Positions 5,858 through 55,362 of a stretch of DNA of 64,000 bases are shown here, piece by piece. The DNA is from Papillibacter cinnamivorans DSM 12816. Lineage in GTDB: Bacteria > Bacillota > Clostridia > Oscillospirales > Oscillospiraceae. The translations under genes and the position numbers were made by a program. The notes beneath the pieces were generated by a model. That model saw nothing but the letters and a program-made list of their open reading frames with translations, did not search any database and was not told where the DNA came from. The first letter of the stretch is position 1, and every line of letters starts with the position of its first letter. The stretch is from the NCBI RefSeq assembly GCF_900176335.1, contig NZ_FWXW01000006.1, forward strand, positions 1 through 64,000. Reading direction: 5' to 3'.

Positions 5858-6631
5858 TCAGAGAATCCGGAGCCGTTCCACGCCGGAGCAGAGCCCGGTA
5901 TCGGTGTCCAGTTCAAAGATGGCGCACTCCATCTTGTAATCTCCCGGGGCGGTTTCATACCTTCCCGTGGGGTTTCCCAAAAAGGTGTCCACGGACTGGT
6001 CGACGCGGATGCCCAGAACGGACTCCACGGGGCCGGTCATCCCCAAGTCGGTGATGTATCCCGTCCCCTTGGGCAGGACTCTCTCGTCGGCGGTCTGGAC
6101 GTGAGTGTGGGTCCCGAAGAGGACGGAAACCCGCCCGTCCAGGTAATATGCCATGGCGAGTTTTTCGCTGGTGGCCTCGGCGTGAAAGTCCACGACGGTG
6201 AAGTCCGCCGTGTCCTGGGCCAGGATGCGGTTTATTTCCAGAAACGGATTGTCGGGGCCGAAGTCCATGCCCAGGCGGCCGATGAGATTGACCACGCGAA
6301 GACGCAGTTTACCCGTGTCGTAAATTCCCCAGCCTCGTCCGGGATTCTGGGGAGGATAGTTGGCGGGGCGGAAGATGTACGGGTTTTCGTCCAGGAAGCG
6401 GACGATCTCCCGGCGGTTCCAGGTGTGGTTTCCCAACGTGATGAGATCCGCTCCGGCCTGAAACAGCTCCTCCGCCTGGCGGGGCGTGATCCCTACGCCG
6501 GAGGCGTTTTCGCCGTTCACAACGGTGATTTCGATATTTTTAAGCTTTTTTAACGGACGCAGGCGCTGGCCGAGAAAGGCGATGCCCCTGTCGCCCACCA
6601 CGTCGCCCACGGCCAAGAGATTCATTTTCAC
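5858..6631 (-). CDS. ymdB: YmdB-family metallophosphoesterase (TIGR00282 type)
   Basis: The 257-residue protein has the family's sequence blocks AVGDVVGDRG, VNGENASGVGITP, LGNHTWNRREI, DFHAEATSEK and GTHTHVQTADE, which supply the dinuclear metal ligands. In Bacillus subtilis YmdB is a phosphodiesterase acting on cyclic nucleotides and affects biofilm and motility gene expression; that function is known for the family, not shown here. I prefer the GTG at 6631 because AGGAG lies 7 bases upstream; an ATG two codons later is the alternative. It lies just downstream of rny, the same neighbourhood as in Bacillus (ymdA-ymdB), but a terminator separates them. Confidence 0.92.
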   Translation of the reverse strand: MKMNLLAVGDVVGDRGIAFLGQRLRPLKKLKNIEITVVNGENASGVGITPRQAEELFQAGADLITLGNHTWNRREIVRFLDENPYIFRPANYPPQNPGRGWGIYDTGKLRLRVVNLIGRLGMDFGPDNPFLEINRILAQDTADFTVVDFHAEATSEKLAMAYYLDGRVSVLFGTHTHVQTADERVLPKGTGYITDLGMTGPVESVLGIRVDQSVDTFLGNPTGRYETAPGDYKMECAIFELDTDTGLCSGVERLRIL

Positions 6632-6764
6632 GGCAATGCTCCTTTGCATCCTTCCGATTTAAGATGCCGGATTACGAAATGCGTTTCCGCGGCGGGATTT
6701 CTCCGAAAGGCCAAGGCCTCCGAAAGACCGGAAAAGGCCGACAGGCCCTGGCCCGGGATAAAAT

Positions 6765-6802
6765 AAAAAGATCGGACAAAGTTATTATACCCTGTCCGAT
6801 CT
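6765..6802 (-). terminator. Rho-independent terminator of rny
   Basis: AGATCGGACA (6770-6779) pairs with TGTCCGATCT (6793-6802). On the minus strand the hairpin lies 12 bases after the rny stop and is followed by TTTTTATTTT. It partly insulates rny from ymdB. Confidence 0.9.
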
Positions 6803-6814
6803 GTTGATGCAAAG

Positions 6815-8362
6815 TTATTTTGCGTATTCGATGACCTTGGTTTCCCGGAGGACATGCACCTTGATCTGCCCCGGATAATCCAGTTCGCTCTCTATCTTTT
6901 TGGCGATGTCCCGGGCGAGGAGGATCATGTTGTCCTCGGAGATCTCCTCGGGCTTTACCATGATGCGAACTTCCCGGCCGGCCTGAATGGCGAAGGATTT
7001 TTCCACTCCCGCGAAGCTCCCGGTGAGCTCCTCCAGCTTTTCCAGGCGCTTGATATAGTTCTCCAGGTTCTCCCTGCGGGCGCCGGGCCGGGCCGCGGAA
7101 ACCGCGTCGGCCGCCTGAACAAGACAGGCGATGATGGTCTGGGGTTCCACATCGCCGTGGTGCGCGTGAATGGCATGTACGACCTCGTTGGATTCCCTGT
7201 ATTTTTTGGCAAGCTCCACGCCGATGGTGACGTGTGAACCTTCCATCTCGTGATCCACTGCTTTGCCCAGGTCGTGCAGAAGACCCGCGCGCTTGGCAAG
7301 GGTGATGTCCGCTCCCACTTCGGCTGCGAGAAGCCCCGCGACGTGGGCCACCTCGATAGAATGATTGAGGACGTTCTGACCGTAGCTGGTGCGGTATCTC
7401 TGGCGGCCCAGGAGCTTGATGATCTCCGGGTGCAGGCCGTGAATTCCGGTTTCAAAGGTGGCCCTTTCACCCTCGGCCTTGATGGTTGCGTCCACCTCGC
7501 GGCGGGCTTTTTCCACCATTTCCTCAATACGGGCCGGATGAATCCGCCCGTCGGTGATGAGCTTTTCCAGAGCGATGCGGGCGATTTCGCGGCGGACGGG
7601 ATCGAAGCAGGAAATCGTGATGGCTTCCGGCGTATCGTCGATGATGAGGTCGACTCCTGTCAGGGTCTCCAGAGTACGAATGTTGCGGCCCTCGCGGCCG
7701 ATGATACGGCCCTTCATCTCGTCGTTGGGTAGGGGAACGACGGAGACGGTGACCTCGGCCACATGGTCCGCGGCGCAGCGCTGAATGGCCAGAGAAATGA
7801 TTTCTCTTGCCTTGCTGTCCGATTCTTCCTTGAAACGGGTCTCGATCTCTTTGATCTTCATGGCCATTTCATGGGTTACTTCGGATTCCAGCTGATGGAT
7901 CAGATAATTTTTGGCGTCTTCGATGGTGAGCCCTGAAATTCTTTCCAGGAGATCCAGCTGATTTTGTTTGATGCCCCGGATTTCGGCCTGCAGCTGTTCC
8001 ACCTCGCTGGTTTTTGCAGAAAGGACCTCGTCCTTCTTTTCGATCATGTCCGTCTTGCGGTCGAGGGATTCTTCCTTTTGCTGCAGACGGCGCTCCTGCT
8101 TCTGCAGATCCGCGCGCCGCTCCTTGACTTCCTTTTCATGTTCGGTGCGGGCTTTCAGGATTTCCTCCTTGGCTTCCAGCAGCACTTCCCGCTTTTTGTT
8201 TTCCGCGCTCTTGATGGACTCATTAATAATGCGCTTGGCTTCTTCTTCGGCGCTGGAGATTTCCTTTTCGGAAACGGTTTTCCTGTAATGTATGCCCAAG
8301 GGGAAGAAAACCAGCGCAGAAACCACAAACGCAATTACTCCTACAATAACATAGTGCAGCAT
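6815..8362 (-). CDS. rny: Ribonuclease Y
   Basis: This 515-residue endoribonuclease starts mRNA decay at the membrane. Domains in order: an N-terminal membrane helix (about residues 3-22), a long charged coiled coil (about 30-200), a KH RNA-binding domain with [10 protein letters not shown], and an HD phosphohydrolase domain with [17 protein letters not shown] as metal site. Length and order match Bacillus RNase Y. The absence of RNase E-like features in the neighbourhood fits a Firmicutes RNA-decay system. It is transcribed as its own unit, with a terminator 12 bases downstream. Confidence 0.98.
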
Positions 8363-20749: not shown

Positions 20750-21082
20750 AGTTGAGCGCCTTCGGGTGCAACTGCGATGAAACGGGAGATTGCGGCTTTG
20801 AGCCGGTAACTTCCGCGGAGTATGTCCGAGAATCGGGCGGCTGAGGAATACTGTAGAGCGTATATCGCTGCGCGTAAATGGTACCGGCCGGATCTTTCCC
20901 TGCGCCGGTTTTATTTATACCGCAAAATGATACGCACGGCAAAGCGTACAGATTATTTCTCACCGTACGGAGCGCGGCAAGCCACCGAGCAGGCCGGGAA
21001 TACCGCATGTTTGTCCCCGGAAGGGAAAGCGGGCGCCCCGACCCATGCAACACGACGTACGTTATTAAGGAGGAAATCGAAA
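20750..21082 (+). promoter_or_regulatory. Long untranslated leader of the S10 operon with an attenuator-like hairpin
   Basis: About 320 nt of leader precede rpsJ. At 20883-20909, ACCGGC and GCCGGT form a stem that runs into TTTATTTA, resembling an intrinsic terminator. A reading frame through the leader (from 20822) joins rpsJ in frame but has no ribosome binding site. Ribosomal operons are often autoregulated at such leaders; which protein would bind here is unknown. Confidence 0.5.
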
Positions 21083-45117: not shown

Positions 45118-46005
45118 ATGAAGAAGAAGCTGAGAATCCTTTTGGCGGCGTCTGTCATGGCGGCCATGCTGCTGCCCATCACCGCCTGCTCGGGCGGATC
45201 GTCCGCCGCGACTGCGACACCCACTGCTGCGCCCACGGAGAGCGCGGCACCCACGGAAGCTTTGAACGGAACGCTGAGGGTGGGAATGGAGTGCGCTTAT
45301 GCGCCCTTCAACTGGACCCAGACGGACGATTCCAACGGCGCGGTGCCCATCGACGGCAGCATCGGCTATGCCGCGGGCTACGACGTTGAGATTGCAAAAC
45401 TGGTAGCCGCTTCCCTGAATAAGGAGCTGGTAGTGGTCCAGGTGGACTGGGAAGGACTGGAGCCCGCCCTCAATTCCGGGAAAATCGACGCCATCATTGC
45501 CGGTATGTCGCCCACGGCGGACCGCCGGCTGAGCATGGATTTCTCTGATTACTACTATGATTCCGATCTGGTGGTGGTGGTCCGGGCCGACAGCAAGTAT
45601 GTGGATGCCAAGTCCATCGGCGATTTCGCCGGGGCGAAAATCACGGCGCAGCAGAACACCTTCCACTACACCGTGCTGGATCAGATGGACGGGATCGACA
45701 AGCAGACCGCCATGGCGGATTTCCCCACCATGATCGTAGCTCTCACCTCCGGCAAGATCGACGGGTATATCTCCGAGCGCCCTGCGGCCATTGCGGCGGT
45801 GAATTCCAACCCGGAAATCACCTACGTTGCCTTTGAAGAGGGCAAGGGCTTTGATTACACCAAGGATGATGTGGCGGTTTCGGTGGCGATCAAGAAGGGC
45901 AGCGATCTTCTCGGACCCATCAACGAGGCGCTTGCGGGGATTACCGCGGAGGACAGGCAGGCGCTGATGGAGTCGGCTATCGCAAATCAGCCCTCCGCTT
46001 CGTAA
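45118..46005 (+). CDS. Polar amino-acid ABC transporter, substrate-binding lipoprotein
   Basis: A 295-residue precursor with a lipoprotein signal; the lipobox is ITAC with the lipid-modified Cys24. A Thr/Ala/Pro linker (about 30-49) follows. The binding domain is a family 3 solute-binding protein: LRVGMECAYAPFNW, GYDVEIAKLVAASLNKELVVVQVDWEGLEPALNSGKIDAIIAGMSPTADR (in motif order), DFSDYYYDSDLVVVV and TSGKIDGYISERPAA. It captures amino acids such as glutamine or cystine outside the cell. The hairpin after the gene should let it be made in excess over the membrane parts. Confidence 0.95.
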   Translation: MKKKLRILLAASVMAAMLLPITACSGGSSAATATPTAAPTESAAPTEALNGTLRVGMECAYAPFNWTQTDDSNGAVPIDGSIGYAAGYDVEIAKLVAASLNKELVVVQVDWEGLEPALNSGKIDAIIAGMSPTADRRLSMDFSDYYYDSDLVVVVRADSKYVDAKSIGDFAGAKITAQQNTFHYTVLDQMDGIDKQTAMADFPTMIVALTSGKIDGYISERPAAIAAVNSNPEITYVAFEEGKGFDYTKDDVAVSVAIKKGSDLLGPINEALAGITAEDRQALMESAIANQPSAS

Positions 46006-47675: not shown

Positions 47676-47799
47676 TTTTTTTATACTGGACTCCAATAAA
47701 ATGTCGATACAGCAAACAAGATAGTACGGTTGTCCCCCCGCCGGAGGCGGGGGGACAACCGTACTATCTTGTTTGATCTTTTTATTGGATAATATTATC
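47676..47799. repeat. Long-palindrome element 2
   Basis: A 30-bp perfect stem (arms 47713-47742 and 47746-47775) is closed by a GGA triloop. An outer CCAATAAA/TTTATTGG stem (47693-47700, 47781-47788) surrounds it. The left part, TATACTGGACTCCAATAAAATGTCGATAC, matches element 1 at 16127-16155. Its right end reaches the stop codon of the radical SAM gene (47798). It lies between convergent genes and looks like a terminator of mobile origin. Confidence 0.9.
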
Positions 47800-49183
47800 A
47801 GGTGGGATTGGCGGCTATTTCGGGCTTTTTTTCCATGTGCTTAAGCTTATAATAATGCGTATTTTTGCCAACATAGGCGATACCATACGCGAAGGGCATG
47901 CCGAGATGCATCAGAAAGCACAGACCCAGCCGCCGCAGTCCATATTGAAGCCCGAATATCCGCATAATTTTAAAAGAAGATAAAAAAGAGTAGAATTGTC
48001 TGACGGCCCGAAAAAATTCCTTCTGCAGCGCCCAGGGGGAGAGGTGGTTAGGGATAAAGGTGACGTTGAGCATATCGAAGAGGCTCCATTCGTGGGTGAG
48101 CATACGGTTTTGTTTTTCCAGCTGATCATATACCGGCGTCCCCGGAAAGGGCGTCATGACTGCGGGCTGCAGCTGATAGGCGTTGATGGACTTGGCAAAC
48201 TGCACGCCGTTTCGGATATCCTCCGCGCAGTCCGTGTCGATACCCAAAACAAGGCTCGCGATCAGGCGGATCTTATGGCGGGAAAGGGCCGCGGCGCACC
48301 GCCGGATGTCGGAAATCTTCTGGTGTTTGTTGATGAGATCCAAAGACGCCTGGTTGAGGGATTCGATTCCCACCAGGACACGGGAGAGATGAGCCCGCTG
48401 CAGCAGCTCCAGCATTTCCTCGTCGCCGGCAAGATCCGTCCGGCCGAAAAAGAAGGTCTCCCGGAAGACGAGGTTTTCCGCGATCATGCGCCGGCAGATT
48501 TCTTTGGCGCGCTCCCTGTCCGCGGTAAAATTGTCGTCTTCAAAATTCATATACTTAAAGCCCAGTTTTTTATAGTAGCGAAGCTCCTGAATGACGCTTT
48601 CCACACTCCGTTTCCGGTACGGATGGAACATGCGGGAGGTGGTGCAGAAGGAACAGCGGAAGGGACAGCCCCGGGTAGACATCACGTTAGCTGCCTCACA
48701 GCGGGTTTTCAGCAAAGAATAATCGGGGAAGGGGATGGAGTCCAGGTCCTTAGTGCATTCGGCGCGTACGATCTGATCCGTCACCCGTCCCTCCACCACG
48801 TCCAGAATGACGGATTCCCCTTCGCCCACAATCACCTGATCGGCGTGCTCCGCCGCCTCCTCCGGAAGCGCGGAGGCATGGATTCCCCCGATGAGAACAC
48901 GGGCACGGAATTCCCTGTGAATGCGATCGGCGAGAAAATAAGCGCGGGGCGCGCTGGAGGTCATGGTATACAGACAGTAAACATCCGCTCCGGCAATCTT
49001 TTCAAAGGGAAGGTCGTCATAGAGCTCTTCGTAGACCTCCACTTCATGCCCCGCGTTTTTTAGGATATGTCCAAGTATCAAAGGCCCCGTAATAGAATTG
49101 GGGTGCCCATACAAGTTATTGCCCAAACGGTACAGGGCGAACCTGCGCATACCGCTGGCAGGAGTGATAAAAACGATTTTCAT
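47798..49183 (-). CDS. B12-binding-type radical SAM protein
   Basis: 461 residues from MKIVFITPASGMRRFAL at 49183 (AAAGGGG upstream); a longer frame adds 18 residues without a site. Residues 1-140 form a Rossmann-like domain of the cobalamin-binding type (LIGGIHASALPEEAAEHADQVIVGEGE). The radical SAM cluster is C173-x3-C177-x2-C180 in STRGCPFRCSFCTT. The clear DxHxxG base-on motif is absent, which is common. Class B radical SAM proteins methylate or rearrange unactivated carbons (BchE, HpnP-like). The C-terminal 80 residues hold a hydrophobic stretch. Substrate unknown; no biosynthetic neighbour. Confidence 0.85.
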   Translation of the reverse strand: MKIVFITPASGMRRFALYRLGNNLYGHPNSITGPLILGHILKNAGHEVEVYEELYDDLPFEKIAGADVYCLYTMTSSAPRAYFLADRIHREFRARVLIGGIHASALPEEAAEHADQVIVGEGESVILDVVEGRVTDQIVRAECTKDLDSIPFPDYSLLKTRCEAANVMSTRGCPFRCSFCTTSRMFHPYRKRSVESVIQELRYYKKLGFKYMNFEDDNFTADRERAKEICRRMIAENLVFRETFFFGRTDLAGDEEMLELLQRAHLSRVLVGIESLNQASLDLINKHQKISDIRRCAAALSRHKIRLIASLVLGIDTDCAEDIRNGVQFAKSINAYQLQPAVMTPFPGTPVYDQLEKQNRMLTHEWSLFDMLNVTFIPNHLSPWALQKEFFRAVRQFYSFLSSFKIMRIFGLQYGLRRLGLCFLMHLGMPFAYGIAYVGKNTHYYKLKHMEKKPEIAANPT

Positions 49184-49888
49184 GTTTGACAGCCCCTTTC
49201 GGTTTGGGAAGAAAGACGATTGGTTTTGCCTTTCCACAATTTGTAGTATGGGCTGCTTTTACTAAAATTAAACCTTTGCGAGACAGGCCCGGAAATCATT
49301 TTTTGGTATTTGTATACAAGACGCAAGATTCCATTCTTCCGTCTGATGGAATCTATTGCCCCACCCGGACCCCTATCAGGAAAAGTGGGATACCGGAAAT
49401 TTCAGATAAGGAGAGGAAGGGCAAGGTCTGCAGCCCATAAGCCCGATTCACCGGAAGAATCTTCCAGATTACACCGAGTTTATTTTAGTTCCCAACAGAG
49501 AAATATTCAAGGGCGATGAACGGGAGTAAAAGCACCAGAACATCCGAAAAGCACCGAAATGTAAGTGAAACAGCTTTCAGCCTGAAAAAATCGTAGGATT
49601 GATTCCGGCTGAACGGATATTCGGGTATTTTCCGAGAAGCAGCTCCTCATAAAATCATATTTAGTTTTCCCGCCGCCGGTAAAAGTTTTGAGGCTTTGGC
49701 CGCGTTATAAAGGGGCTGTTGAAAAATGCACGTATTTCACAATTTTAATGGTATTCCCCCCGCCGGCGGCGGGGGGAATACCATTAAAATATCAGTGCTA
49801 TTGTGCATTTTGTGAATCATGCAGCAGCCCCATGCTGTTTCGAAGATTTTAATCTCCTATCGCGCACGGAGCCGTATCCCGGACAGGC
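49184..49888. other. Gene-free interval with long-palindrome element 3
   Basis: No credible coding sequence. It probably contains the radical SAM promoter near 49184-49320 on the minus strand (A+T-rich, no clean hexamers chosen), an unremarkable stretch to about 49710, and palindrome element 3 (49711-49831) just downstream of the SLH gene. Confidence 0.6.
49711..49831. repeat. Long-palindrome element 3 (same core, different arms)
   Basis: ATTTTAATGGTATTCCCCCC (49742-49761) pairs perfectly with 49771-49790. The core CCCCCCGCCGGNGGCGGGGGG is the one in elements 1 and 2, while the flanks differ. The ends GGGGCTGTTG and its near-complement CAGCAGCCCC (49821-49831) form a terminal inverted repeat. 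Located 58 bases after the stop codon of the SLH gene, where it may act as terminator. Confidence 0.8.
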
Positions 49889-52606
49889 TCAGTCCCTGTC
49901 AAGACAGCGGACCAGGACAACAGCGGCCATTTCCCGGGTGGCGGAGGCCAGAGGCAGAAACTCTTCCCCGTTTCCCTCCATGAGCCCCGCGGAGGCGAGG
50001 GCTTCAACGGCATCCAAAGCATAAGCCGAGGCCTCGTCCCGATCGGAGAAGACGGTAGGGGTATCCCCGTTTTCAACGGCGAAGGCCCGGGAGAGCATCA
50101 CCGCCATATCCTGACGGGTCACAGGGTCGCCGGGCCGGAAATGCCCGCCACCGGTCCCGGTGATGATTCCCATGTCGGCCGCCGCCTGGACCCAGGGCCA
50201 GTACCAATCCTGTTCGGTCGCGTCGGAGAACCGGGGAGAATAGGTGTCCGGAACCGCCCAGCCCAGGGTGCGAAGGAGCATGGCGCAGAACTCGCCCCGG
50301 GTGACGGCGTCCTGGGGCCGGATGGCTCCCGTGTCGTCCCCACGAAGAATTTCCAGAGAGACCGCACGGGCCATGCCTTCCCTTGCCCAGGAGGAAACGG
50401 AGTCTCCGTCGGCGAAGGGCGATAGCACGGCGTCCGCGTCAATAGAGGTTTCCTCCTCTTCGCCGCCCGCGGCGGAGGAACCCGCCTGCCAGTCCTCGGT
50501 GTAGCGGAACTCCACCGTGTCCCCGGCGCTGAGGGTATAGGCGCCGCAGCCCACGGAGGGGGCGACCCCGTTGACGAAGTAGAGCCAGCCGCTGTTGTCT
50601 CCGTAATCGAAGGCGGCAAGGCCCCCGATGGAAACCACGTAGGCGGTGGAACCGCTGCCGGTGTACTCCAGGTCGACGCCCGCCGCGGAAAGAGCGGAAT
50701 GGAGAGCATCGAAGGCGGAGGAGCCTTCGGCGACGGTGACGGTGCGGGAGGAGAGGAGAATACCGTTCACCCCGGTGACCGAGAGGGTCACGTTAATGTA
50801 GGACGGGACGTAGGGCTCCGAGACGGAGACCCTGCAGTAGGGCCGGGAGATGGTGTTTACCGAATCCACAATCTTTTGGGCCGAGACCAGATAGGTTCCG
50901 GCGCCGGAGAAGGAAAGGGAGGCCTGCCCGTTTTCATCGGTGATAATATCCGTGGCGGTTTCGGCGGAGGAGCCTCCGGCGGTGCTCACCAGAAGCTCTG
51001 CGCCGGAAACGGCATTGCCTGTTTCGTCCAGCAAAGTGAGGGATACGTTCTGCCCGGTGAGGCAGGAGAGGCTTTCCTGGATAAAATAGGCATACCGGTT
51101 TATAATGCTCCAGTTGTCGTCGCAGGAAGCCAGATAGAAAACCACCGAGTCGCCGTTAACCAGGGCATAGTTGGCGGCTCCCAGGGTGGCCGCCTGATTA
51201 TTGATGTAAAAGCTCCAGTAGGATCTGGGAGCGGTATCGCTGGCGGCAAGCCCGCCGATGACCGTGATGTAGCCGCCCGCGGCCATAAAGTCCGGAGAGG
51301 AAACCGAAAGGCCGCGGGAGGCCATGGCCGAGACCATGGCATGCATGGCGCTGGGAATGAGGTAATCATATGTAAGGCCGTAAGGGGAAAGGTCGGGGCT
51401 CTGGTTGGTGACGGTGACGGAGGTCTTGGGAAGAAGGGTGGCGTCCCCGCTCTCGATGCGCACGGAGGCGGATCTGGAGTTTACCTGAGTTTCCCCGGAG
51501 CCGCCGCCGGTACCGTCGCTGAGAATAAAGAGGTTTGCGTTAAAGTCCGTGGCGTAATTGCCGAAGATGTAGTACCGGACGGGAGCTGTTGTCGTCAAGC
51601 CCAGAAATTCCCGGTAGGCCAGGACGGCCCGGGCGCCCTGCTCGTTGTAGAAAGCGTTGTTGTCCGCTCCGATCATGCCGGCGTCGCCCCGGAAGGCCAT
51701 GAGAGCCTCCATGAGGTCGGCGGCGGAACCGACGGCGTATTCATAGGTGCAGGGGTCCGTGCCCATGGAAAGAAGAGCCAGGATCACCAGAGCGGTGGAG
51801 CTGGCGTCGGCGCCGTAATCGGAAATATACCCAAATCCGGCGGGCAGATACTGGGTTTTCAGCCAGGCTAAAGCTTTATTCACCGCGGCCTCGACGCCGG
51901 CATCCCCGCTATAATAGGGCGCAAGGGCCGTAACGGCCACGGCGGTGGTGTTGGTATCCACGTTGCTGCCCCCATCCCAGGCCCAGCCGCCACCGGAATC
52001 CTGAGCATCCAAAATTGCGTCTTTAAGATGTTCCCGGTTCTGTACCGCGGTGTCCACCATCTGGCTCAGGGCATAATCCCAGCTCATAGCCGTGTCGGGA
52101 TACGCCCCGCAGTCCAGGGCCAGAAGCGCATAGCAGAGGGTATTAACGTATATTTCGCTGTTGTCGGCGCTTTGGAAACTGCCATCCTCCAGATGAAGCA
52201 GGGTGCCTACCGCGTCTATGGTGGCTCCGGCGCCGTTGGTGTCCAGCGCGGTCGCGTCAAAGCCCATGGCGGACAGGGCCAGAATAGCCTTGGCGATGCC
52301 GCTGGCGCTGGTTCCGGCCTCGACGACGTCCAGCTGGTCATAATAGAAGGTGCGCGTGGCGGCCGAAGCGAGATAAGTGGTGGAAAACTTCGCGTCGCTG
52401 CGGCCCAGGGTCATGATGAGCCAGGGAAAAATGGAGTCCGAGGGCCCCGAATAGGAATCCTTGTATGTATTTGCCGTGGTGTCGACGGCGGCGGCATAGT
52501 CGGAATCCGTAAAGGATGCCGCACGGGCGGAGAGGGAAAGGGGAGAGAGGACCAGAAGCAGAACGAGAAACAGACTGAGGCCCGATTTGCACAGTGTTTT
52601 TTTCAT
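49889..52606 (-). CDS. Cobalamin-regulated, SLH-anchored surface protein resembling transcobalamin/intrinsic factor
   Basis: A 905-residue secreted protein starting MKKTLCKSGLSLFLVLLLVL at 52606; signal peptide ends near ARAA (residue 30). Residues about 35-350 are repeated helical pairs of the terpenoid-cyclase/prenyltransferase (alpha-alpha barrel) type, e.g. GGGWAWDGGSNVDTNTTAVAV and ASSTALVILALLSMGTDP. Two DUF4430-like beta domains follow (about 470-570 and 650-740) with a Ig/carboxypeptidase-like spacer between. Three SLH motifs end the protein (FADGDSVSSWAREGMARAV; FSDATEQDWYWPWVQAAADMGIITG; FSDRDEASAYALDAVEALASAGL). Human transcobalamin has the same helical barrel plus DUF4430-type beta domain, between which B12 is held. 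A B12 riboswitch lies upstream. Role in cobalamin or corrinoid capture is inferred. Confidence 0.85.
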   Translation of the reverse strand: MKKTLCKSGLSLFLVLLLVLSPLSLSARAASFTDSDYAAAVDTTANTYKDSYSGPSDSIFPWLIMTLGRSDAKFSTTYLASAATRTFYYDQLDVVEAGTSASGIAKAILALSAMGFDATALDTNGAGATIDAVGTLLHLEDGSFQSADNSEIYVNTLCYALLALDCGAYPDTAMSWDYALSQMVDTAVQNREHLKDAILDAQDSGGGWAWDGGSNVDTNTTAVAVTALAPYYSGDAGVEAAVNKALAWLKTQYLPAGFGYISDYGADASSTALVILALLSMGTDPCTYEYAVGSAADLMEALMAFRGDAGMIGADNNAFYNEQGARAVLAYREFLGLTTTAPVRYYIFGNYATDFNANLFILSDGTGGGSGETQVNSRSASVRIESGDATLLPKTSVTVTNQSPDLSPYGLTYDYLIPSAMHAMVSAMASRGLSVSSPDFMAAGGYITVIGGLAASDTAPRSYWSFYINNQAATLGAANYALVNGDSVVFYLASCDDNWSIINRYAYFIQESLSCLTGQNVSLTLLDETGNAVSGAELLVSTAGGSSAETATDIITDENGQASLSFSGAGTYLVSAQKIVDSVNTISRPYCRVSVSEPYVPSYINVTLSVTGVNGILLSSRTVTVAEGSSAFDALHSALSAAGVDLEYTGSGSTAYVVSIGGLAAFDYGDNSGWLYFVNGVAPSVGCGAYTLSAGDTVEFRYTEDWQAGSSAAGGEEEETSIDADAVLSPFADGDSVSSWAREGMARAVSLEILRGDDTGAIRPQDAVTRGEFCAMLLRTLGWAVPDTYSPRFSDATEQDWYWPWVQAAADMGIITGTGGGHFRPGDPVTRQDMAVMLSRAFAVENGDTPTVFSDRDEASAYALDAVEALASAGLMEGNGEEFLPLASATREMAAVVLVRCLDRD

Positions 52607-52686
52607 ACCATCCCAACCTTTGCATTTGATTTTCACACGGCCGGACAGAGAAAGGTCAGACCTATCCGGCGGGCGTTCAGCCGCAA

Positions 52687-52722
52687 ATAAAACTCTCCTT
52701 GTCCCACGGGGGGACAGGAGAG
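52687..52722 (-). terminator. Riboswitch expression platform (terminator)
   Basis: On the minus strand CTCTCCTGTCCC pairs with GGGACAAGGAGAG (one bulge) and is followed by TTTTATTT. It lies between the cobalamin aptamer and the start codon and should stop transcription when cobalamin is bound. Confidence 0.85.
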
Positions 52723-52791
52723 AAAGCGGCTTCCGCCGGCGGCAGAGCCAAGCCTCACACCCTCTATCTTCCGTAGAGTCTGCGGTGTTTG

Positions 52792-52950
52792 CCGTCAGGC
52801 AGGTCTTCTGGCTCGGGAGTCGTCGCGGCGCAGCGCCTTCCCGGTATACCGGCGGCATGATGCTGCGCAGCTCGTCCCATACAGCGGCGGGACCGCACGG
52901 GCGTTTCACCCGTTTCCCTTTTCACGGATCGTAAAATCCGCACCTGACGA
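52792..52950 (-). promoter_or_regulatory. Cobalamin riboswitch
   Basis: The minus strand carries AGCCAGAAGACCTGCC (52798-52813), the B12 box. Further 5' are AAAAGGGAAACGGGTGAAA, GGTCCCGCCGCTGTATGGG and the P1 pair CGTCAGG/CCTGACG (52944-52950, 52793-52799). This is the RF00174 layout. It controls the gene starting at 52606 through the downstream terminator; expression should rise when cobalamin is scarce. Confidence 0.96.
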
Positions 52951-53100
52951 GCGATATTTAGTTTTCTCCGCCGGCCGGATGTCTGCAGCGAGGCAGGAGG
53001 ACACCCGCGGCGATGGGGTGTCTATATTATAACCGGAATCTTTTTCCAAAGCAAGAGAAATTGCGCGGGTATCCGGAATATACAAAAATCGGGGAGATGC

Positions 53101-53931
53101 TCAGCAGTTGCCTTCGTAGACGTACTCCAGCTTTTCCCGGGCGATCCGGGCGAGGGAGTATACGGTGTCCACGGAGGTGGCGGGCCGGTCCGTCATATGG
53201 TAGCGGGGAAAGAAGCGGGTGACGTGGAGAGGGATGCGGGGGTCTACGGAGGCCAGCCAGGAGGACAAACTCCGCATTTCTTCCGGAGAGTCGTTTTCCC
53301 CGGGGATGACCAGCAGGGTGACCTCCACATGGCTGCATTCCGAGGCGGCGGCGATGCTGTTTTTCACGGTTTCCACATTCCCCCGCAGCCTCCGGTAAAA
53401 TGCCGGGGAAAAGCTCTTCAGGTCGATGTTCAGGGCGTGAATATGGGGCAGAAGCTCCCGCAGGGGTGCCTCGTTTATATACCCGTTGGTGACGAGTACG
53501 TTTTTCAGACCCTCTTTTTCGATGAGAAGCGAACAATCCCGAACGAATTCGTAACCAATCAGCGGCTCGTTATAGGTATAGGCAAGCCCGATGTTTCCCT
53601 GGGAGCGAAGGGAGAGGGCGCGGGAGACCAGCTCTTCCGGGGTGAGGGAGACGGCGCGCAGGCGCCCCGAGTCCGCCGAGGAAATCTCATAATTCTGGCA
53701 CCAGGGGCAGCGGAGATTGCAGCCGTAGCTTCCCGCGGACAGAATCCGGCTGCCGGGATAAAAGCGACGGAGAGGCTTTTTCTCAATGGGGTCCAAAGAA
53801 AGGGAAGTAATCTGCCCGTAGTTTAAGCAGCGAATTTCCCCGCCCCGGTTGCTCCTGGCCCCGCAGAACCCCGTCCGCCCTTCCTCCAGCCGGCAGCCGT
53901 GGGGACAGATGGGGCACGTTATGCTGCTCAT
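53101..53931 (-). CDS. amrS: AmmeMemoRadiSam system radical SAM enzyme
   Basis: 276 residues. Radical SAM cluster C71-x3-C75-x2-C78 in GYGCNLRCPWCQNYEISS-type sequence (here YGCNLRCPWCQNYE). An N-terminal extra cysteine set, C6, C9, C13 and C23 (CPICPHGCRLEEGRTGFC), is typical of the AmrS group (formerly PflA-like). It overlaps the upstream AMMECR1/Memo gene as ATGA. The system is conserved across bacteria and archaea, and its reaction is unknown. The product was formerly called pyruvate formate-lyase activating enzyme, but no such lyase is near. Confidence 0.93.
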   Translation of the reverse strand: MSSITCPICPHGCRLEEGRTGFCGARSNRGGEIRCLNYGQITSLSLDPIEKKPLRRFYPGSRILSAGSYGCNLRCPWCQNYEISSADSGRLRAVSLTPEELVSRALSLRSQGNIGLAYTYNEPLIGYEFVRDCSLLIEKEGLKNVLVTNGYINEAPLRELLPHIHALNIDLKSFSPAFYRRLRGNVETVKNSIAAASECSHVEVTLLVIPGENDSPEEMRSLSSWLASVDPRIPLHVTRFFPRYHMTDRPATSVDTVYSLARIAREKLEYVYEGNC

Positions 53932-55313
53932 TTGTGCCTCACCACCTCGAAGCGTTCCATGGAGAAAGCCTCCCGGGGGGAGATCCCGGCCTTTTGCAGG
54001 GCGATGGAAATCTGATCGCCCGGCGTATCCACTCCCTCCAGGTTGGGCAGAAGCAGGCCCCGGCGCCAGCCCCGGCTTACAATGACGCCGTACCGCTTCA
54101 CATCCAGCTCGTCCGGGGATGAGATCGGTTCCGGCTTTTGCAGCACATCCACGCTGTAGGTGAGCTCCGGCAGCTCTTCGGCACGGACCGGATCGAACCT
54201 GGGGTCCTCAAGGCCTGCGGATACGGCGTTGCGGATGATCTCGTCCGCCACGCAGGGGGCGGCGGGGGAGATGGTCCCGATACAGCCCCTGAGGCGACCT
54301 TCCTTTTTCAGAGAGACAAAGACGCCCGCTCTGTTTTTCAGCATTTGCTCCGGCAGGCTCGCGGGCCGCGGAAGACTTTTTCCCGTTCGGACCCTGGTCT
54401 CCAGAGATTCCCTGGCCAGATTCACATAGGGGTCCCCGCCCGCTTTTTTCTCCGGCGGGCGTTCTTTGCGCTCCTCACTCCGGAGCTGAAGAAACCGGCG
54501 GTCCTCCGCGTCTCCCGTTACGGTATAGCAGCACAGGGCGTAGCCGACGCCAAAGGGACCTTCGTAGGATAAAAACTCGGATTCTACGGCTTTTCCGTCC
54601 AGGGCGCCCGCCATTTCAACAAAGGAGCGCAGGCCGCATTCCGCCGCCGATTCGCAGAAAGCCGCGTTAAAACGCAGGAAACGGGAAAAATCGGCGGTTT
54701 TCATGGCGGCCGTGACTTCCGCGTCGAATACAGGCCCTTCGGGCGAAAGACCGTAAGGCCCGTCCTCCTTCAGACGGTGGGAAAGATCGCCGCTGGCCAA
54801 AATCACGGTCTTCCGCCCGAGCCGCTCCGCCGCTTTTGTGATGCATGTTCCAAAGACATAATGATCGGACAGGGGAAGCCCCGACAGGGAGACGCGAACG
54901 ATCCGGTAGCTTCTGTACTGCTGTTCCAGAAAGCAGAGCGGAACCAAAACTCCGTGATCCAAAGAACGGTCCCGTTCTCCCTCCGTGCCGGCGGATATCC
55001 CCGCGCTTTCCGCTTCCCGCACCAGGGCACTTACAAATTCCATGTCATAATCCTTTTTCACGGAAACCTGAGGCGCGCCGAATTGCCCAAAGTCCCCGGA
55101 CGCCGAGGGGCCGGGGGAAATATGAATGTAATCCCGGTACATTACGGAATGAGGAGAAATCACCACGACGGTTTCCGGCTTGACTTCTGAAATTTTCCGG
55201 GAAACCATCCTAAAAGAATCTGCTGTTTTTTGGATTTTTTTCTCTTCTCCCCTGCCCACAGCCGGAAGAATGATGGGAGGATGCGGTACGATATACGCGC
55301 TGATAACGGACAT
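53928..55313 (-). CDS. AmmeMemoRadiSam fusion protein: Memo-like (B) + AMMECR1 (A)
   Basis: 461 residues from MSVISAYIVPHPPIILPAVG at 55313 (AAAGGAG upstream). Residues about 1-262 are a Memo-like/LigB-type dioxygenase fold (VVVISPHSVMYRDY, ASGDLSHRLKEDGPYG). Residues about 285-455 are AMMECR1 (YVNLARESLETRVRTGK, LRGCIGTISP, DPRFDPVRAEELPELTYSVDVL, GVIVSRGWRRGLLLPNLEGVDTPGDQISIALQKAGI-type end). In many genomes these are separate genes; here they are fused. With the radical SAM enzyme they complete the AmmeMemoRadiSam trio. Physiological role is not established. Confidence 0.93.
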   Translation of the reverse strand: MSVISAYIVPHPPIILPAVGRGEEKKIQKTADSFRMVSRKISEVKPETVVVISPHSVMYRDYIHISPGPSASGDFGQFGAPQVSVKKDYDMEFVSALVREAESAGISAGTEGERDRSLDHGVLVPLCFLEQQYRSYRIVRVSLSGLPLSDHYVFGTCITKAAERLGRKTVILASGDLSHRLKEDGPYGLSPEGPVFDAEVTAAMKTADFSRFLRFNAAFCESAAECGLRSFVEMAGALDGKAVESEFLSYEGPFGVGYALCCYTVTGDAEDRRFLQLRSEERKERPPEKKAGGDPYVNLARESLETRVRTGKSLPRPASLPEQMLKNRAGVFVSLKKEGRLRGCIGTISPAAPCVADEIIRNAVSAGLEDPRFDPVRAEELPELTYSVDVLQKPEPISSPDELDVKRYGVIVSRGWRRGLLLPNLEGVDTPGDQISIALQKAGISPREAFSMERFEVVRHK

Positions 55314-55362
55314 GCGACACACTCCTTTCCACAATGATGCGACGCTTTTTTCTCTCTCTATT

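Follow-up and report, generated by a model that had tools for sequence, protein, structure and literature searches.

The stretch of DNA analysed here, referred to as the window, comprises 64,000 nucleotides of Papillibacter cinnamivorans DSM 12816 (contig NZ_FWXW01000006.1, positions 1 to 64,000) and carries a full-length cobalamin riboswitch followed by a single gene. This gene encodes a 905-residue protein predicted to be secreted, here named P0001, with an alpha/alpha toroid, two DUF4430 domains and three surface-layer (S-layer) homology (SLH) motifs. P0001 is probably (at about 0.78) a wall-anchored corrinoid trap that is repressed by B12 and feeds an energy-coupling factor (ECF) transporter of the CbrT type. 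Corrinoid capture at the cell surface is supported by three lines of evidence that agree with each other, namely predicted fold, genome context and riboswitch regulation. The initial annotation had already proposed a surface corrinoid-capturing protein that feeds an uptake system, and the same three lines support this proposal, corrinoid binding itself being predicted.

The aptamer is located at 52781..52962 on the minus strand and matches Rfam family RF00174 over its full length with 119.1 bits (E 2.8e-29; gathering score 31.5 bits), slightly extending the full B12 aptamer first annotated at 52792-52950. It is the sole RF00174 match in the organism's own genome (2.89 Mb, 99% complete). The expression platform is an intrinsic terminator at approximately 52685..52722 on the same strand (52687-52722 as first annotated), which is composed of 12 pairs with one bulge and a following U-rich tail. 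In the RNA fold of 52686-52780, which has a z of -2.6 for the whole segment, the terminator arms are CUCUCCUGUCCC and GGGACAAGGAGAG, followed by UUUUAUU, and the letters 3' of the hairpin are UUUUAUUU. Through its hairpin and U-tail this platform should be able to stop transcription ahead of the gene, and switching is predicted from the sequence. A putative promoter at 53026..53054 on the minus strand, recognised by eye, lies in front of the aptamer and consists of TTGCTT and TATAAT separated by 17 nt. Neither this site nor the 52685-52722 terminator was listed in a consensus promoter and terminator scan; the promoter-like site is absent from the scan because its -35 hexamer TTGCTT matches the consensus at just three of six positions. 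On the 3' side of the gene stop, a perfect 23-bp inverted repeat at 49742..49790 (-40.6 kcal/mol, z -9.5) is a probable terminator, and no second copy of its arm was found elsewhere within the window. The transcription unit looks monocistronic, being composed of promoter, aptamer, terminator and a single gene.

The P0001 gene is an open frame at 49889..52606 on the minus strand, with an ATG at 52606 and a stop at 49889, which agrees with the coordinates annotated earlier for the one gene after the leader. The N-terminus of the protein is signal-like as judged by eye alone. The alpha/alpha toroid (51587..52519, minus strand, approximately residues 30-340) receives no Pfam call and is clear in the predicted structure searched with Foldseek and VIA-align and in an alignment (A4) of the N-terminal 300 residues with toroid proteins of relatives, so that the terpenoid-cyclase-type helical barrel of the initial annotation stands. 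The first DUF4430 domain is located at 51107..51394 (approximately residues 405-500), with a partial PF14478 match at 51128-51289 (54.9 bits), and the second at 50498..50725 (residues 628-703; PF14478, 74.5 bits), both on the minus strand. Pfam gives these two stretches an E-value of 7.8e-35. The region between them (50873..51055, minus strand, residues 518-578) contains a weak immunoglobulin (Ig)-like/CarboxypepD_reg-like stretch below the Pfam cut-off, with E-values from 2.5e-4 to 7.8e-4. The final part of the protein is composed of the three SLH motifs (49892..50419, minus strand; three stretches of PF00395, E 7.3e-32) and matches the S-layer protein Sap at E 6.7e-15. Both the DUF4430 pair and the SLH triplet had been read from the sequence beforehand. 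No enzyme family was identified in P0001 above the Pfam or NCBIfam cut-offs. Membership of PF01122, which we take to be the Pfam family of eukaryotic cobalamin-binding proteins, was rejected since the family's model gave no match; it is not among the 10 families listed for P0001 at E<=10, a search in which HMMER filters lose many weak matches.

An AlphaFold2 model of residues 30-712 has a mean predicted local distance difference test score (pLDDT) of 68 and a predicted template modelling score (pTM) of 0.53, and its confidence is good for the second DUF4430 domain and most of the toroid. The model was compared by Foldseek with 350,542 Protein Data Bank (PDB) chains. Transcobalamin chains, or the beta domain of transcobalamin in isolation, occupy all of the ranks 1-14, and haptocorrin and intrinsic factor are found at ranks 18 and 19, respectively. 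Terpene cyclases and farnesyltransferases make up ranks 15-17 and most of the rows further down. The second DUF4430 domain aligns with the transcobalamin beta domain 5no0 with a target TM-score of 0.81 and 27% identity, and the toroid gives VIA-align Z-scores of 18-22. A compact unit from a relative (L253), composed of a toroid and one DUF4430 domain in 420 residues, is modelled with a pLDDT of 90.3 and a pTM of 0.77, and its Foldseek ranks 1-15 are all transcobalamin, haptocorrin or intrinsic factor. In the models the toroid and DUF4430 domain each match a transcobalamin domain, and a corrin pocket between the two domains would be putative.

A search of the own genome for DUF4430 identified one further locus, on contig C6. 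The operon at this locus encodes a toroid-SLH protein (568 residues), a DUF4430 protein (259 residues) with an N-terminal membrane anchor recognised by eye, an EcfT-like protein, a fused ECF-type ATPase pair (560 residues) and an ECF S component (241 residues). For the EcfT-like protein, Pfam and NCBIfam give no match at the thresholds used, and it is named from its position and recurrence, and the fused ATPases match ECF ATPase models slightly under their cut-offs. The S component belongs to the ECF_trnsprt family (PF12822), and in the PDB it matches 6fnp best (E 3.3e-10), the match after that being at E 0.13. In the available text of its description, 6FNP is ECF-CbrT, the B12 transporter of L. 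delbrueckii (PMC5997447). The C6 genes differ from CbrT as described there in that they are accompanied by toroid and DUF4430 proteins and encode a fused ATPase pair, and the same available text describes no extracellular capture protein for CbrT. The names CbrT, CbrU and CbrV are in use for a B12 ECF transporter. The C6 operon is a candidate CbrT-type corrinoid importer, as predicted from its genes. The statement in the initial annotation that no corrinoid transporter gene is adjacent to P0001 holds for the scanned neighbours (45118-46002, 47801-49237 and 53104-55334), the candidate importer being located on contig C6.

The own genome also encodes a MetH-type protein that combines a homocysteine and a pterin domain with two B12 domains and scores below the NCBIfam cut-off for full-length MetH. 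No match to the BtuF family was found in the own genome, with 13 of 14 control genomes being positive, and its two weak FecCD-family matches are permeases, one of the zinc type and one of the sugar type. BtuFCD was rejected as an importer in this genome on these results. Based on the MetH-type protein, the BtuF and FecCD results and the C6 operon, the cell seems to depend on cobalamin and to do without BtuFCD, and among the importer types searched it seems to have a single plausible corrinoid importer. SEED annotations reportedly include an additional lipoprotein for a cobalamin transporter predicted to be of the ECF type.

The association of these genes was followed across genomes. A scan of genome contigs with P0001 alone confirmed no relative, and a scan with a conserved DUF4430 alignment (A3) gave at least 587 confirmed stretches, of which 80 loci were kept. 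In these 80 loci, found by DUF4430 alone and with contig ends included, DUF4430 is present in all 80, a toroid in 73, an EcfT-like protein in 70, a fused ATPase in 65 and an S component in 63. Riboswitches were sought with a model (R1) built from alignment A2 (24 rows, 19 pairs; rough E-values, cut-off E<=0.01), and an R1 match lies upstream on the same strand in 45 of the 80 loci and in 36 of the 46 loci of at least 18 kb. In total, 51 R1 matches are upstream on the same strand versus four downstream and four on the opposite strand, the sequence covered amounting to approximately 601 kb on the upstream side and 626 kb on the downstream side. Since the rows of R1 include the window aptamer and aptamers of DUF4430 loci (L060 of L065, L067-L070 and L049 of L073), matches in seven of the 80 loci were re-scanned with Rfam, which confirmed 11 of 11 (nine upstream, two downstream). 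Four of the eight downstream or opposite-strand exceptions (L206, L219, L248 and L280) immediately precede a further toroid and/or DUF4430 gene that adjoins the operon, repeating the arrangement of the window, and in L279 the riboswitch is followed by a toroid and/or DUF4430 gene with a 234-residue secreted frame between. Of the other three exceptions, the one in L261 lies ahead of an NrdG-like gene and NrdD, and those in L215 and L218 are unassigned. L248 belongs to Pseudoflavonifractor phocaeensis, another member of the Oscillospiraceae, and features a riboswitch, a toroid-DUF4430-SLH protein and an ECF operon in the opposite direction; its toroid-DUF4430-SLH protein is 30-33% identical to P0001 over separate stretches.

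A second set of 49 loci (L075-L083 and L164-L203) was picked from among the protein matches listed, at a point when the riboswitch matches listed were already known. Rfam identifies a cobalamin riboswitch in 11 of these 49, upstream and on the strand of the toroid/DUF4430 genes. Loci L065-L074 were left out of the counts as they had been chosen for having both a protein and a riboswitch match on one contig, and the count of 11 among 49 is more likely too low than too high because obvious coincidences went into L065-L074. The 80-locus and 49-locus sets overlap, with L248 and L075, for example, being the same contig. Further R1 matches (E<=0.01) fall under the Rfam gathering score and outside the 11 in L079, L171, L175, L178, L182, L185, L188, L195, L197, L198 and L202, along with a second match in L075. 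Six leaders of this class, with R1 E-values from 1e-7 to 0.0023, are located directly before genes for toroid or other secreted proteins (L182:8402-8539, L188:8661-8794, L178:7433-7513, L195:8616-8789, L185:10650-10804 and L171:9059-9184) and are possibly degenerate or divergent cobalamin aptamers.

Several results weigh against P0001 being a B12-repressed corrinoid trap. With regard to regulation, the searches gave no riboswitch for the C6 ECF operon itself, 35 of the 80 loci (10 of the 46 of at least 18 kb) have no upstream riboswitch match, and 38 of the 49 protein-list loci have no cobalamin riboswitch by Rfam. DUF4430 is present in just two of 80 stretches downstream of high-scoring cobalamin riboswitches of the family (L084-L163, the upper riboswitch list minus known DUF4430 loci, many ending at contig ends), and the cobalamin riboswitches of the family therefore mostly control other genes. 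With regard to structure, the first DUF4430 domain of P0001 is poorly modelled with low confidence, and the whole-chain root-mean-square deviation (rmsd) to transcobalamin-type matches is approximately 21-27 Å for both the P0001 and L253 models, which means that toroid and DUF4430 domain are placed otherwise than in the solved carriers. The transcobalamin and intrinsic factor architecture claimed in the initial annotation is matched in the models by each domain taken singly, and the modelled placement of the domains differs from it. The similarity is also slight at the sequence level: single-sequence matches of P0001 to transcobalamins are marginal (E 0.17 and 0.74), DUF4430 profile A3 finds no PDB sequence at E 0.1, and profile A5 finds cyclases and no transcobalamin. 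Taken by itself, the toroid resembles squalene-hopene and drimenyl synthases more closely than transcobalamins (VIA Z 21-22 versus approximately 19 for transcobalamins, and 19-20 versus approximately 17 in a further comparison) among the matches listed, which do not exclude families beyond them.

This closeness of the toroid to squalene-hopene and drimenyl synthases would be expected if P0001 were an enzyme of the cell surface with a terpene-cyclase/prenyltransferase fold. The DxDD motif has a catalytic role in cyclases; however, the DVDD of the cyclases aligns to a consensus d-v-D-i in which the last Asp is missing, no enzyme family is matched above the Pfam or NCBIfam cut-offs, and the two-domain structural matches are B12 carriers. 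Terpene cyclase identity was rejected on these three points, and an enzyme of this fold is considered extremely improbable. An S-layer structural or adhesive protein, with domains that no longer bind corrinoids and a riboswitch that tunes the surface to B12 status, would agree with the SLH motifs of P0001 and with the large surface proteins of relatives, which combine several domains, Ig-like ones among them. The occurrence of DUF4430 and toroid together with ECF genes in most of the 80 loci, often under B12 riboswitches, speaks against such a role, which is regarded as very unlikely.

The main ligand of a corrinoid-uptake protein could also be something other than cobalamin, namely an incomplete corrinoid or a different cobamide, such as cobinamide or pseudocobalamin, or else a different tetrapyrrole. 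In this direction points CobU, which belongs to cobinamide salvage and by Pfam occurs beside ECF genes in L073, whose operon holds two CobU-family genes, DUF4430 and ECF genes. The CobU of L073 also counts in favour of the main reading of P0001 as a corrinoid trap, as do CobU matches to a home-made profile 2-3 kb from ECF genes in L169 and L195. Cobinamide was included in the CbrT competition tests, as given in the available text of PMC5997447, and cbrUVT is listed with a note on cobyrinate diamide uptake in the available part of a review (PMC8123684). The own genome, however, has no CobU match (six of 14 control genomes are positive), so that cobinamide salvage by the CobU route is unlikely in it, and the transcobalamin-type PDB matches carry complete cobalamin. 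A main ligand other than cobalamin is therefore judged unlikely, although less so than the enzymatic or structural roles.

If P0001 is a corrinoid trap of this kind, it would be secreted and fixed to the cell wall or S-layer by its SLH motifs, and its toroid and DUF4430 domains would be the counterparts of the alpha and beta domains in transcobalamin and intrinsic factor and would most likely hold a corrinoid between them. We infer that at high intracellular (adenosyl)cobalamin the bound aptamer would let the terminator form and turn the gene off, and that at low cobalamin the gene would be transcribed, the trap displayed and corrinoid captured outside the cell. The captured corrinoid would be handed to the CbrT-type ECF transporter either directly or via the toroid and DUF4430 proteins of C6, which would resemble the two transcobalamin halves on separate chains. 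A broader scheme, tentative and rather doubtful when taken as a whole, is a Gram-positive "transcobalamin relay" in which corrinoid passes from an S-layer trap to a split transcobalamin, made of toroid and DUF4430 proteins anchored in wall and membrane, and on to a CbrT-type ECF transporter, in a genome with no BtuFCD found and with the riboswitch on the outer trap alone, and in which the animal carriers descend from such parts.

An idea of this kind is already in print: Burroughs et al. 2007 (PMC1796856) predicted that transcobalamin-like surface proteins of bacteria scavenge B12. The available text of that paper defines a transcobalamin-like clade in Gram-positive bacteria and notes toroid fusions, signal peptides, and Ig-like and propeller partners. 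It also describes operons with CbiO- and CbiQ-like genes and a lack of B12 synthesis genes, and proposes B12 scavenging along with gene transfer from Gram-positive bacteria to animals. P0001 is like the proteins in this description in its predicted secretion, in the fusion of an alpha/alpha toroid to a transcobalamin-type beta-grasp, and in its weak Ig-like stretch, some of those proteins having additional Ig-like domains. Operons with CbiO/CbiQ-like transporter genes and a predicted role in collecting B12 are further points in common. Unlike those described there, its gene is solitary under its own cobalamin riboswitch, the protein bears SLH motifs and the candidate CbrT-like transporter is located on another contig. 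The words riboswitch, S-layer and SLH are absent from the main text of PMC1796856. The equation of PF14478 with this transcobalamin clade is our own and is suggested by the Foldseek fold match to transcobalamin. Animal transcobalamin, haptocorrin and intrinsic factor share the toroid and beta domain with P0001 and are its top Foldseek matches, whereas P0001 is bacterial, bears SLH motifs and two DUF4430 domains, has marginal sequence similarity to them and is modelled with a different domain arrangement.

In Bacteroides, BtuG captures B12 at the surface ahead of a transporter (PMC6143338) and is a surface lipoprotein with a beta-propeller that partners BtuB (PMC6977713), according to the available text of the two papers. 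P0001 is comparable to BtuG by predicted function alone, as it has a toroid and beta-grasp. Homology was rejected because no beta-propeller is found in P0001 by Pfam or predicted structure, in agreement with the initial annotation, which had called the two proteins unrelated. In the open PubMed Central literature, a coverage that excludes most subscription papers and all preprints, DUF4430 or S-layer homology was not found tied to a cobalamin riboswitch, and no experimental test of transcobalamin-like bacterial B12 scavenging was found in the open papers searched.

Some of the loci exhibit further features. The L073 locus contains a strong riboswitch that faces away from the DUF4430 operon and a weak R1 match (E 0.0005) before the operon. 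The first gene of this operon (L073:9144-11057, plus strand) encodes an SLH protein with an N-terminal part that is propeller-repeat-like by eye, for which Pfam finds SLH only; if it is a propeller, the protein would recall BtuG. In L169, a 573-residue frame (5898-7616, minus strand) encodes a toroid followed by DUF4430, which is the minimal transcobalamin layout, and adjoins ECF genes, with a CobU-like gene approximately 2 kb beyond them. The riboswitch of L261 (12728-12861, plus strand; R1 E 1.6e-9) precedes a radical S-adenosylmethionine (SAM) NrdG-like gene and NrdD (PF13597), the B12-independent type of ribonucleotide reductase. Six of the 80 stretches downstream of riboswitches (L084, L099, L109, L110, L140 and L163) have a match to a home-made EcfS profile and no DUF4430, and these are perhaps other riboswitch-controlled ECF transporters.

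The next gene downstream of P0001 in the window (47798-49237, minus strand) encodes a radical SAM protein with a B12-binding domain (PF02310, 34.8 bits; PF04055) that is BchE/HpnJ-like below the NCBIfam cut-offs, and its product may be a corrinoid user beside P0001. The upstream neighbours (53101-55334, minus strand) encode a radical SAM protein and a LigB-AMMECR1 fusion by family scan, a set that we take to be the one often called AmmeMemoRadiSam. An S10-Clostridia ribosomal protein leader (RF03136, 42.6 bits) is located at 20769-20840 on the plus strand.

What this locus chiefly adds to the 2007 prediction is the connection with a riboswitch, and it ties that prediction to B12 regulation in many Bacillota. 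It further adds numbers for B12-riboswitch control, SLH anchoring, the CbrT-like S component, a genome that at the same time shows no BtuF match, and a probable trap that stands alone under its own regulation. With one riboswitch and one gene, the locus is a compact testable case, and it provides a bacterial counterpart for asking about the origin of animal intrinsic factor and transcobalamin.

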